A DNA stretch of 45,642 nucleotides, taken from Acidobacteriota bacterium. Its GTDB lineage: Bacteria; Acidobacteriota; Vicinamibacteria; Vicinamibacterales; CAVVIG01. Position numbers and translations under genes: made by a program. Position 1 is the stretch's first letter; each line of letters opens with the position of its first letter. Below the pieces are notes generated by a model that was not told where the DNA came from, ran no database searches, and worked only from the letters and a program-made list of their open reading frames with translations. Location: contig QHWJ01000337.1 in assembly GCA_003222535.1 (NCBI GenBank), positions 1-45,642 on the forward strand, written 5' to 3'. Below, piece after piece: positions 5,078-45,642 of this stretch.

Positions 5078-5977
5078 ATGCTCTCCAGACGACACATGCT
5101 CCTGACGCCTGCTGTTCTGCTCGCCGCGCGCACCGCCGACGCTGCGGGTGGCAAGATGACGCTGGCATTGCACCAGAACACGTCGGCGCGGGCCGGGTTC
5201 AGGCCGTCGCTCGAAGGGTGGGCGAAGGCCGGGATCACGCAGGTCGAGATCACCAACAACCTGCTGGACGACTACCTGAAAACCGAATCGCTCGCCGCGG
5301 CCCGCCGCGTCTTGACCGACCTCGGACTGACGCCCGTGTCCGGCGCGTGTGGCGTCGCCGGGCTCATCGAGCCGAATCCCAATCGCGCGGCGTCGCTGGA
5401 CCGTTTCAAGCAGCGGTGCGAGATGTGGGCCACGCTCGGCCTGACGCACATTTACTCCACGACGGCCTCGACGATCAAGCCGACGGCGGACGACTACAAG
5501 GCGGCCGCGGACAACCTGCGCGAGGTGGGCGAGGTGGCCCGCCAGTTCCAGCAGACAGCCATGTTCGAATTCGTGCGCACGTCGACGTTTGCGTCGACGT
5601 TGACGACGCTGCTGTCGATCACCCGGGCCGCGGCGCAACCGAACGTGGGCCCGCTGTTCGACTGCTATCACTTCTGGTCGGGTCTCAACAAACTGGAAGA
5701 CCTGGACACGCTGCGGCCTGGCGAGATCAAGCACGTGCACTTCCAGGACGTGCCCGACATGCCGCGGGAGATGCTTGACCAGACGACGCGCGTCATCCCG
5801 GGAGACGGCGTGACGCCGCTCACCGCCATCCTGCGCAAGCTTGCGGACAAGGGTTACGCAGGCCCCCTTTCCGTCGAGCTCTTCCTGCCCAAGTTCCAGC
5901 AGGGCGATCCGTTCGAGGTGGCGCGCGAGATCAAGGCGAAGAGCGAGGCGGTCATGCGCCGGGCCAAGGTCATCTGA
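5078..5977 (+). CDS. Sugar phosphate isomerase/epimerase-like TIM barrel, secreted
   Basis: 299 residues; ATG at 5078 with an AAGGGGG Shine-Dalgarno at 5067-5073. The N-terminus 'MLSRRHMLLTPAVLLAARTADA' is a short signal with an Arg pair, Sec- or Tat-like. The rest fits the xylose-isomerase-like / AP_endonuc_2 TIM barrel (IolE/IolI/Hyi relatives): 'AGITQVEITNNLL', 'RFKQRCEMWATLGLTHIYS', 'LREVGEVARQF', 'NVGPLFDCYHFWSG' and 'IKHVHFQDVPDMP' carry the typical His/Asp metal-ligand positions, and the C-terminal 'GYAGPLSVELF' supplies the last Glu. The usual reaction is metal-dependent isomerisation or epimerisation of a keto-sugar or inositol derivative; the exact substrate cannot be read. A 22-bp gap to the next gene suggests one transcript. 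Confidence 0.85.
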   Translation: MLSRRHMLLTPAVLLAARTADAAGGKMTLALHQNTSARAGFRPSLEGWAKAGITQVEITNNLLDDYLKTESLAAARRVLTDLGLTPVSGACGVAGLIEPNPNRAASLDRFKQRCEMWATLGLTHIYSTTASTIKPTADDYKAAADNLREVGEVARQFQQTAMFEFVRTSTFASTLTTLLSITRAAAQPNVGPLFDCYHFWSGLNKLEDLDTLRPGEIKHVHFQDVPDMPREMLDQTTRVIPGDGVTPLTAILRKLADKGYAGPLSVELFLPKFQQGDPFEVAREIKAKSEAVMRRAKVI

Positions 5978-41230: not shown

Positions 41231-41275
41231 GTGCGAGTGGATGGACAAATTACTTCAGCGGGTCAGCGTACGTCA

Positions 41276-41976
41276 GTGAGCACAGCTTCCGAGCCGGTCC
41301 TCGATATTCCGTCGCCGACACCGGACCATCTGAAGCAGAAACTGCGGCTGCGCAGGTTCCTGTTCGCCAGCGCGTTCTCCGTGCTGTATCTGATTGTCCT
41401 CGGCGCCTTCCACATGCAGGACAAGATCGGCCGCGCGACATTACTGCAGGCGTGCTCGATCGTCGGCGCGTTGATCATTGTCTTCTCCGGCGTGTTTCGC
41501 GCGGGACTCAATCTCCGATTTCCCGACCCGAGCCTGACAGGGTGGCAGCTTCTGGCATCGGTCTTCACGATGCTTTACATCGTCTACCGGGCTCCGGACA
41601 CACGGCTGGTCTTCACCGCATTCTTTTTCGTCGCGTTCATGTTCGGCATGCTCCGCCACAGTGGCGTGAAGCTCGCCGTGCTCGGCTCGGTCTCGCTCTT
41701 TTCTTTTGCGCTGATGTCTTTGGGCGCTATGGCGGCGAGGAGTTTGTCCAGATCTGCCGGCACACCACGTTGGCGGGGGCGGTCGCCAACGCGGAGCGGC
41801 TGCGCGAGCGAATCGGCGCGCTCGACGTTCCCGTTCCACACTCGATCGGTCGCCTGACGGTATCGATCGGCGTGGCGCAGTACAAGCCGGGTGAAACCAT
41901 CATGCAGACCTTCGCCCGCGCCGATGGGGCACTGCACAAGGCGAAGCAGCGGGACCGCGACCGGGTGGAATGCTAG
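41276..41976 (+). pseudogene. Broken membrane diguanylate cyclase
   Basis: The first frame (from a GTG near 41276, possible from 41231) reads 'LRLRRFLFASAFSVLYLIVL' and has about five more hydrophobic helices to ~41720. Near 41725 a different frame begins directly with the end of a GGDEF domain: 'DVFGRYGGEEFVQIC', 'AVANAERLRERIGAL', 'LTVSIGVAQYKPGET' and 'FARADGALHKAKQRDRDRVE', stop at 41976. The first half of the GGDEF domain, the linker and probably some helices are missing, and the join is out of frame. It is therefore a deletion pseudogene of a membrane-anchored cyclic di-GMP synthase; the GGEEF site itself is intact but not readable from the start. Confidence 0.8.
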
Positions 41977-41977
41977 T

Positions 41978-44113
41978 TCATCGAGCGGGCAGCGTGAAGG
42001 CCACGTACTCGCCTGAATAGTTGCCGCCGCTGATCGCCACGACGATGTACTGCTTCCCGTCCACGAGATACGTCATCGGCGAGGCGCTCTGCGGCGCCGC
42101 CATCCACACCGCGCCGACTTCCTTTCCCGTCGCTTTCTCGTACGCCCTGAGCATGGCGCCGCGTGGGTGCTCGGGAGTCGTCGTGAGCTGCGGGTCGCCC
42201 ATCACGACGAGCGTCTTCGTCACCATGAGACCGATGCCACCGGTGCCCGCCTGTCCCGTCCGGGGAATCGTGAGGCCCTTGAGCGCCGGGTGATTGCGGA
42301 CATTGTCCGGCGTGTCGCCGTGCGGCACCTGCCAGACGATCTCGCCGCGGTCGAGATTGATCGCGGCGATCGTTCCATACGGTGGTTTGAGAATCGTCAA
42401 GCCGTCGACGGTCAGTCCACCACCGCCACCACCGCCGCGACCGCCGCCTTGCGCGGGGGCGGCCGCCGGCGCCGGTGGAGCCGCGGCTTGCGCCTGCGCG
42501 CGCGGCGAGTCGGCCGCGCAGCAGTCACCAGGTCCCAGGACCTCCTGGAATGGCCGCCCGGCGACACCCGACACGTAACGGATATCCGAGAAGCGTGGAG
42601 GCGGCGTGACGAGCGACGTCGCGGTGATGCCGACGTTGTTCGCGTTGGCGATGATGGTATGCGTCTCCGGATCGTAGGCTACGCCCGGCCAGTTGGTGCC
42701 GCCGACCGCATTCCCCATGTTGATCGCGCCGAGGATGCCGTTGACGTCGCCGAGCACCGCCGGGTTGTACATCCAGGGCGCGACCCTGTACCGCTCGAGA
42801 TTCTTGAGCGCCTGCGCCCGCAGCTCCGGTGTGAAGTCGATCAGATCGTCGGGCACCTTGAGCGAGTTGCGGGCATACGCCGGCGGTTTGGTCGGGAACG
42901 GCTGCGTCGGGCTCGTCTTCTCCCCGGGCACGTCGGACTGCGGTACGGGACGCTCCTCGATCGGCCACACGGGCTGCCCGGTCACCCGGTCGAAAACCCA
43001 GAGGAAGGCCTGCTTGCCGGGGACCGCCACCGCTTTGATCGCGCGCCCGTTCACGGTGATGTCCGCCAGGATCGGCGCGGACGACATGTCGTAGTTCCAG
43101 ATCGGATGGTGCACCAGCTGGAAATGCCACTTCCGCTGGCCTGTTTTGAGATCGACGCACACGAGGCTTTCGGCAAACAGGTTGTTCCCGGGCCGATGGC
43201 CGCCGTAGAAGTCCGAGGTGGGCGTCTCCACCGGCAAGTACACCAGGCCCAGCTCCTCATCGACTGTGATTTGACTCCAGACGCCCGTGTTCCCGTTGAC
43301 CGCCCACGACTCGTTCTCCCACGTGTCGCTGCCGAACTCGCCGGGGCGAGGGATGGTGTTGAACGTCCACAACAGCTTGCCCGACCGCGCATCGAACGCG
43401 CGCACGAGGCCCTTCGTGTTGTTGTGCGTCGACACCGTCGCGCCTTCCCGCATCGAGGAGCCGACAATGATCACATCCTTGACGACGGCCGCCGTGGAGT
43501 GCACGCCGATCTCGCCGGTCTCCAGATCGATCGGCTCGCCCTTGCCCTTGACCGCGCCGACCTTCAAGTCGACGATGCCGTCCTTGCCGAACGACGGGAT
43601 CATCGCGCCGTTCTTCGCGTTGAGCTCGACGAGCCGGTAGCCGGTCGTCACGTAAATGACCCGGTCGTCGCCGCTTCCGTCGGTCCAATACGACACGCCG
43701 CGCCCCGAGAGCTGCCGCGGCGCGATCGCCGCCCGTCTCCCTTCGCGGAGGCTGTGCGCCCAGATCATCTCGCCGGTCCTGCCGTCGAGCGCGACCACGG
43801 AACGGCGTGTGCCGCCGGTGGTGTAAAGCACGCCCTTGATCGCGAGCGGCGTTCCCTCCAGCTTGTACTCAGGGCGCGGTCCCAGGCTGTCGGTCTTGAA
43901 ACGCCACGCCACTTCGAGCTTGCCGAAGTTGGTGGCGTTGATCTGATCGAGCGGGGAGTACTTGGTCCCGCGCACGTCCGCGGTGTAGTGGGTCCAGTCG
44001 CCGTTGGCCGTCGAAGGCTGGCGCGGGGCGCCCGCCCGATCCTGGCCCGATAGTCCCGTCGAGATCCCGGCCAGCACCGCGAGCAGCCACAGGAGCTTCA
44101 AGCTGCGTGTCAC
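41978..44113 (-). CDS. PQQ-dependent dehydrogenase (glucose-dehydrogenase-like propeller), periplasmic
   Basis: 711 residues; GTG start at 44113 with AGGAGGGG upstream. Signal 'LLWLLAVLAGISTGLSGQ'. Blades of the quinoprotein fold are evident: 'DWTHYTADVRGTKYSPLDQI', 'VVALDGRTGEMIWAHSLREG', 'VRAFDARSGKLLWTFNTIPR' and 'LVCVDLKTGQRKWHFQLVHH'. The layout is the membrane-glucose-dehydrogenase type without the N-terminal membrane helices. Oddities are Asn in 'VHHPIWNYDMSS' where related enzymes usually have 'WDxD', and a low-complexity Ala/Pro/Gly insert (about residues 540-565, 'GGGRGGGGGGG'). The vicinal 'CCAADS' precedes that insert. The substrate is probably a sugar or polyol. Not adjacent to a cytochrome. 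Confidence 0.85.
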   Translation of the reverse strand: MTRSLKLLWLLAVLAGISTGLSGQDRAGAPRQPSTANGDWTHYTADVRGTKYSPLDQINATNFGKLEVAWRFKTDSLGPRPEYKLEGTPLAIKGVLYTTGGTRRSVVALDGRTGEMIWAHSLREGRRAAIAPRQLSGRGVSYWTDGSGDDRVIYVTTGYRLVELNAKNGAMIPSFGKDGIVDLKVGAVKGKGEPIDLETGEIGVHSTAAVVKDVIIVGSSMREGATVSTHNNTKGLVRAFDARSGKLLWTFNTIPRPGEFGSDTWENESWAVNGNTGVWSQITVDEELGLVYLPVETPTSDFYGGHRPGNNLFAESLVCVDLKTGQRKWHFQLVHHPIWNYDMSSAPILADITVNGRAIKAVAVPGKQAFLWVFDRVTGQPVWPIEERPVPQSDVPGEKTSPTQPFPTKPPAYARNSLKVPDDLIDFTPELRAQALKNLERYRVAPWMYNPAVLGDVNGILGAINMGNAVGGTNWPGVAYDPETHTIIANANNVGITATSLVTPPPRFSDIRYVSGVAGRPFQEVLGPGDCCAADSPRAQAQAAAPPAPAAAPAQGGGRGGGGGGGLTVDGLTILKPPYGTIAAINLDRGEIVWQVPHGDTPDNVRNHPALKGLTIPRTGQAGTGGIGLMVTKTLVVMGDPQLTTTPEHPRGAMLRAYEKATGKEVGAVWMAAPQSASPMTYLVDGKQYIVVAISGGNYSGEYVAFTLPAR

Positions 44114-44343
44114 GTCCCCTCCTCGTGATCCATTGTCACATGTAACGCCTTGGCCGGTCCCAAAGCCGCAGGGCGAGGCTTTCCGCCTTCGCTGAAGCTA
44201 CGGCGGACCGCCGAAGCCTTGGCGGAGGCTGGTCAGCCGCGCCGAACGGCAACGTGTCTGTCTACGCTCGTGGTGAGCCTGTCGAACCACGAGCCCCTAC
44301 TGGTGGCTCGTCCTTCGACAAGCTCAGGACGAGCGATTTGTTC
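44114..44343. repeat. Palindromic repeat cluster
   Basis: Two tandem hairpins: CTCGTGGT/ACCACGAG (44267-44293) and GCTCGTCCT/AGGACGAGC (44306-44334), whose loops carry CTGTCGA or TCGACAAGCTC. A repeat related to the 23594 core lies at 44198-44236 (CTACGGCGGACCGCCGAAGC and on). The second hairpin ends ten bases past the stop of the PEBP gene (44344) and could help end its transcript. Confidence 0.7.
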
Positions 44344-44973
44344 CTACCTGTGGAAGCGCGCGACGAGAACGGCTTTCCCGAGGACGTGGCCGTCCATCGC
44401 GTTGACCACGGCCGTACGCGTTTCGGCCGTTTGTTGCGGCGTGCCCTGTGGCACCTCGAGCCTCGTGTCCAGCGCGTACAATTCGAAGGTGTAGTGATGA
44501 TAGGGACCCGCCGGCGCGCCGGGCCCCATGTAGGCGTTCGATCGGAGGCTCACCTGGCGGCTGCCGTCGGGCAACTCGCCCTGCGCGACGTTTTCCGGGA
44601 GACCCGTCGCCGTCCCCGGGATGTTCCAGATCAACCAGTGCGTGATGTCCATCTTCGAGCCCTTGTTGAGGACGGGCTCGGGATCGTGCATGAGCAGCAC
44701 GAAGCTCTGCGTGCCGGGAGGCACCTGCGACCACTTGAGCTCCGGCGATGGCGCGGTCGCGCCGGCGGCCTGCGTGTACTTGTCGGGGATGACGCCGCCG
44801 TCCTCCCATGCCGTCGACGTCATGATCAGAGGGGGCGTCGCAGGTCCACGACCGCCGCCTCTGGCCTGCCCGCCGCCCCCGGGCGCTTGCGCGATCGCCG
44901 GAGTTGATCCCAGCGCCCACAACGTCGCCGCGGCCAGCAGGCATTTCGCCGATCGCATCACGTTTCTTCGCAT
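44344..44973 (-). CDS. YbhB/YbcL-type PEBP protein, secreted
   Basis: 209 residues from the ATG at 44973, preceded by GAGGAGAAAAG; the longer frame (44994) lacks a good site. Signal 'CLLAAATLWALGSTPAIAQ', then a Gly/Arg-rich linker (~37-50). The PEBP domain starts 'MTSTAWEDGGVIPDKYT' and has 'SPELKWSQVPPGTQSFVLLM' followed by 'HDPEPV', 'THWLIWNIPGTATGLPE' and 'GPYHHYTFELYALDTRLEVP', the conserved Asp-Pro and His ligand-pocket residues. Bacterial YbhB proteins are of unknown role and may bind small anions. It is the outermost reverse gene, divergent from the SWIM/helicase chimera. Confidence 0.93.
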   Translation of the reverse strand: MRRNVMRSAKCLLAAATLWALGSTPAIAQAPGGGGQARGGGRGPATPPLIMTSTAWEDGGVIPDKYTQAAGATAPSPELKWSQVPPGTQSFVLLMHDPEPVLNKGSKMDITHWLIWNIPGTATGLPENVAQGELPDGSRQVSLRSNAYMGPGAPAGPYHHYTFELYALDTRLEVPQGTPQQTAETRTAVVNAMDGHVLGKAVLVARFHR

Positions 44974-45035
44974 GGCTTTTCTCCTCGCGCGCACGTCGCG
45001 CGTACCGCGGCTATGTTACATAATCCGCGCGTGAG

Positions 45036-45642
45036 ATGGCGCATCTGCGCGGCATTGTGACGCAGGCCCTGGCCCCGGTCCTGACACCCCACGGCCGCCT
45101 GCTGCTCGCGCCGGTGGATGATGCGCCGGCCCTGGCGCCGGATCAGTCGCGCAGGATCGAGGAGTCTTTTGCGCGCGGATCCGGTCACGGGCTCCTGCGG
45201 CTCGGCGCGGCAGAAGTCGGGAGCGTGCTCCCGCCCGTGTTCGGCTACTGGCGGGAATTCTCCGCCCGCTTTGTGACAGCCGTGTGCACGCTGTCGGACG
45301 CCGGCGATCGCGGAGTGCTGGCTGCCAGGACGTTCTGGGGCAAAGCCTGGTGCGACAGCCTCGAGCGCTACAGCGACTACGCGAATCGGCTGCCACGCGG
45401 CCGGACCTACATCCGCAACGGATCGGTCGTCGATCTGCAGATCGCGCCGGGGAGAATCGGTGCGATGGTGAGCGGCTCAGACCTCTATCGGATCGAGGTG
45501 AAAGTCGCCGCCGTAACGAGGGCCAGATGGACTGCCATCTGCAGGGATTGTGCGGGCGCCATCGACTCGCTCGTCGAGTTGCTGCAGGGACGGCTCTCGC
45601 CGGGCGTGATGGCGCGCATGTGTCAGGAGAAGACGGGTCTGT
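45036..45642 (+). CDS. SNF2-helicase N-terminus fused to SWIM zinc-finger protein (partial, chimera)
   Basis: Open from the ATG at 45036 to the right edge, 202 residues visible. Residues 1-~83 ('GIVTQALAPVLTPHGRLLLA', 'LPPVFGYWREFSARFVTAVC') are like the extreme N-terminus of bacterial SNF2/DEAD helicases. From ~93 on, 'RTFWGKAWCDSLERYSDYAN', 'RLPRGRTYIRNGSVVDLQIA' and 'CRDCAGAIDSLVELLQGRLS' are those of the separate SWIM zinc-finger protein usually encoded just downstream of that helicase. The helicase ATPase region and the SWIM protein's own N-terminus are missing and the frame stays open, so this appears to be an in-frame deletion fusion. The SWIM Cys/His cluster itself would lie beyond the edge. 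Confidence 0.75.
   Translation, partial: MAHLRGIVTQALAPVLTPHGRLLLAPVDDAPALAPDQSRRIEESFARGSGHGLLRLGAAEVGSVLPPVFGYWREFSARFVTAVCTLSDAGDRGVLAARTFWGKAWCDSLERYSDYANRLPRGRTYIRNGSVVDLQIAPGRIGAMVSGSDLYRIEVKVAAVTRARWTAICRDCAGAIDSLVELLQGRLSPGVMARMCQEKTGL

Follow-up and report, generated by a model that had tools for sequence, protein, structure and literature searches.

A helicase-SWIM fusion at the end of an Acidobacteriota contig, probably the remnant of an SNF2 helicase-SWIM operon

The intact SNF2 helicase-SWIM pair

The closest described system is the SsoRad54-like pair, in which a SWI2/SNF2 ATPase is SWIM-associated and which is named in PMC5512222; a second paper deals with another SWIM protein (PMC3747172). 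As a reference for this pair we used the closest intact operon (genome G013), in which a helicase of 920 residues (L031 2352-5111) is followed after a few bases by a SWIM protein of 309 residues (L031 5118-6044). The helicase contains DUF3670, an SNF2-related domain (PF00176, residues 423-727) and a Helicase_C domain (PF00271, residues 745-855), and its best match in the PDB is 1z63, a Snf2/Rad54 family helicase. Its neighbor scores 20.1 bits for the SWIM zinc finger (PF04434; cut-off 19.6), with C163, C165, C172, and H174 as finger residues. Judging by these families, the intact pair may serve repair or defense against invaders by remodeling DNA-protein complexes. Membership in Zorya (ZorD), DISARM (DrmD), or Dpd (DpdE) was rejected because the G013 helicase falls below the curated family cut-offs (285 of 1500 bits for ZorD, 75.6 of 950 for DrmD, and 30.8 of 500 for DpdE). 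Its PADLOC matches are confined almost entirely to the shared ATPase core, and the SWIM protein matches the candidate family PDC-S62 weakly and partially.

The first-pass annotation of this DNA held that the helicase and SWIM genes normally lie next to each other in that order, and we found the intact pair at 77 of 100 loci (80 from a scan of genome contigs and 20 fetched, with two duplicates among them, L081 of L033 and L070 of L038). The remaining loci comprise 15 with too little upstream sequence (including that of G089), 7 with other arrangements, and 1 with the helicase half only. Where head and SWIM part lie on one contig, they are about 2.7-3.5 kb apart from start to start (order, class, and phylum match tables, by eye), except in G089 and in the genome studied here (G000). 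Any match at all was found in 37 out of 162 genomes of the order and 45 out of 193 of the class, and in a phylum sample matches occurred in 79 of 396 genomes, many of them distant SWIM relatives at about 35%. Presence is thus patchy across the order.

The window, meaning the whole stretch of DNA that was analyzed, is the entire contig C41 (45642 bases) of G000, an assembly of 450 contigs and 8.06 Mb that is 95.5% complete, and consequently there is no sequence to the right of its edge. Both halves of the fused gene at that edge derive from a pair of the SsoRad54-like kind, with an orthologous helicase head followed on one strand by the orthologous SWIM body, the order that is usual for the pair. 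Unlike that pair, the window has neither the ATPase core (SNF2-related and Helicase_C domains), which is missing entirely, nor SWIM residues 1-42, and it stops short of the finger.

The fused reading frame and its missing stretch

The fused open reading frame spans 45036-45641 on the plus strand, reaching the contig end at 45642, and runs off the contig with an open 3' end after 202 codons. Its first part (45069-45323, plus strand) corresponds to residues 3-87 of the G013 helicase ortholog (81%, E 6.4e-41) and its second part (45312-45641, plus strand) to residues 43-152 of the G013 SWIM protein (81%, E 1.1e-57). On these alignments the homology to a helicase head and a SWIM protein is far beyond chance, which bears out the initial description of an SNF2 helicase start followed by SWIM sequence. 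The join had been placed at residue 83, near position 45290; protein and DNA alignments to G013 instead put it near residue 93-96 (45312-45324, plus strand), about ten codons further right. At the DNA level, window positions 45070-45322 align with L031 2359-2611 and positions 45324-45640 with L031 5256-5572, so that the switch from helicase to SWIM lies between 45322 and 45324. Relative to the G013 operon, a net 2643 bp (881 codons) are absent and the frame is kept.

With the fusion as query against 100 genomes (its own and relatives), matches appeared in 25 genomes and as two separate sets: fusion residues ~4-97 match SNF2 helicases at the N-terminus of their long frames, most of which have ~900 residues or more, and fusion residues ~84-202 match shorter downstream frames. 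Trees were built separately for head and tail from the 78 loci having both parts (L081, L070, and short-match rows excluded), and the window was sister to G013 both times, with support of 0.71 and 0.79. An origin of the halves in different lineages was rejected, given that G013 is the nearest relative of both. We also rejected the idea, which the first-pass annotation had considered, that SWIM proteins normally include the first ~83 residues: an alignment of nine relatives shows a different, conserved SWIM N-terminus that is about 45 residues long and ends at a TFWGxAWC stretch. The window retains this stretch as TFWGKAWC, preceded by helicase sequence.

Neither an intact helicase ortholog nor, elsewhere in the genome, a SWIM finger was found in the G000 assembly (E<=0.001), and we therefore rejected a location of the missing parts on a different contig. 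The best other helicase match (contig C105) is a different SNF2 protein, with 43% over the ATPase core. A search for a second, complete locus likewise found none, but only a second, frameshifted SWIM remnant (C345:17006-17328). This remnant is adjoined on the opposite strand by a DNA methylase-like gene of 716 residues (PF01555; L032 7479-9626, from C345).

Pfam gave no match to the 202 codons of the fusion, an Rfam scan of 44000-45642 found no match, and a PDB search with the fusion returned chance-level matches only (E 0.57 or worse). Elsewhere in the window, a diguanylate cyclase (41231-41976, plus strand) appears internally deleted: its membrane part is followed, in a different frame, by no more of the GGDEF profile than positions 74-161 of 161. 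No intact ortholog was found; relatives of the membrane part occur in 2 of 59 other genomes searched, as longer proteins with another architecture.

A probable deletion remnant and its alternatives

We propose, with a probability of roughly 0.6, that the fusion is the remnant of an SNF2 helicase-SWIM operon left by a chance in-frame deletion. The ancestor would have had the usual pair, an SNF2 ATPase of ~920 residues and, directly after it, a SWIM zinc-finger protein with some 250-310 residues. A single illegitimate deletion of about 2.6 kb, without a long repeat at its ends, would have removed the whole ATPase core together with the start of the SWIM protein, the frame being kept by chance. 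With the ATPase gone, the pair would be unable to work as before, and the fused gene is thus most likely a non-functional or decaying leftover. An in-frame deletion of most of the helicase and the SWIM head had been suggested from the start, and it fits every comparison made here, including the absence of a long word common to both genes at the join. The proposal draws on the homology of both halves, the missing stretch, and the shared nearest relative, on the lack of an intact ortholog or finger in the same assembly, on the second SWIM remnant there, and on the patchy presence of a pair that is intact at most loci. It also draws on comparable remnants in relatives (G089, L132, G298, L092, G416, G498, and G029).

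Three of these remnants resemble the window in that a piece of the helicase is joined to a 5'-truncated SWIM gene, and differ from it in their join points. In G089, helicase residue ~122 is joined to SWIM residue ~126 out of frame; L132 has two deletions, frame changes, a stop in SWIM, and an out-of-frame join. In G298, helicase residue ~880 is joined in frame to SWIM residue ~131 and the finger is present, whereas the window sequence ends before it. At this last join (L154, contig C8 of G298), short stretches of the helicase and SWIM proteins of relatives resemble each other (IDxLI / IDSLV). Other loci have lost different parts: only the last ~25 helicase residues precede an intact SWIM gene in L092, the SWIM gene is truncated at its 5' end in G416, and G498 has a frame-broken head only. 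Helicase residues 1-87 are absent from G029, a genome assembled as a single contig of 7.48 Mb, which shows that fragmented assemblies are not the only ones in which sequence is lost at the head boundary. L072 retains helicase residues 720-920, and L100 has lost residues ~355-487 in frame. In L077, the identity of the helicase to G013 rises abruptly from 60% to 82% across a frame break filled with Ns (5264-5269), which suggests a mosaic contig.

Two observations speak against a deletion remnant. The first is that a positive sign of decay is absent: no stop interrupts the frame, and at columns conserved at >=90% the window deviates in only 0 out of 17 head and 2 out of 54 tail positions. These departures are within the ordinary range of the other rows (seven broken or cut rows, L032, L132, L035, L036, L034, L071, and L072, were excluded), so either the copy is young or constraint on it persists. 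Changes at second codon positions are somewhat more common in the window than in G013 when both are compared with the same outgroups (for example, 16 versus 9 for the head against L037), which may be a weak hint of relaxed constraint. The second observation is the closeness of the join to the contig end (only ~320 bp), since errors of assembly are likelier there.

This position is also a reason to consider that the organism has an intact operon and that the contig ends in a chimeric join, an explanation that we regard as unlikely though it deserves real weight. The SWIM gene is a habitual assembly breakpoint: G037 and G038 also break inside it, and contig C2 of G010 ends at the same codon as the window, with an exact 67-base overlap with contig C102 (L033 end and L034 start) that points to a branch of the assembly graph in conserved sequence. 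The in-frame join of G298 likewise lies ~150 bases from a contig end, and most loci of relatives (77 of 100) are intact. However, at the join the helicase and SWIM genes of seven relatives share in-register runs of about six bases at most, and in six relatives the longest exact word common to both whole genes is at most 15 bases and does not lie at the join, which makes a k-mer collapse hard to see. Both sides of the join also point to G013, and the missing helicase core is on no other contig of the assembly.

Less probable still is a functional fusion, in which the helicase head tethers the SWIM protein to the former partner of the helicase or competes with a helicase. The first-pass annotation had thought of a working SWIM protein with a helicase-recruiting head, and the comparisons do not support it. 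The preserved frame, the conserved residues of the window copy, and the finger-bearing in-frame join of G298 would all fit such a role, but only two of the four helicase-SWIM joins inspected are in frame (the window and G298, not G089 and L132), which chance, at 1/3 each, easily gives. The openness of the frame is itself weak evidence, since the antisense strand is open across these bases as well (45016-45642, the entire fusion stretch) in this G+C-rich DNA. Moreover, the fusion has lost the ATPase and the conserved SWIM N-terminus, and its SWIM part stops 11 residues short of the first finger cysteine (position from the alignment of relatives), so that no finger lies within the contig sequence. 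The same join was seen in no other genome of the 100-genome, order, class, and phylum surveys, in which G000 is the sole genome of its genus. With a mean pLDDT of 37.7, the AlphaFold model of the fusion was uninformative and we set it aside; its input alignment (A1, 90 rows) combined the fusion with 49 of the 75 usable helicase-head fragments and 40 of the 86 usable SWIM fragments. That in-frame fusions such as those of the window and G298 are produced and maintained as regulators or decoys that act on SNF2-SWIM complexes without an ATPase seems very improbable to us. A decayed module, the other possibility raised in the first-pass annotation, is most likely the better reading than a functional protein.

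Implications for the SNF2-SWIM family

As this gene pair often lies at contig breaks, a fusion that appears in a metagenome assembly needs reads to back it. Should the fusion be functional after all, it would mean that a helicase head and a SWIM protein can act without the motor. If the deletion remnant is real, it would be one of several cases in which a common and little-studied bacterial SNF2-SWIM operon independently lost its ATPase, and would add to the picture of a patchy and easily lost module.
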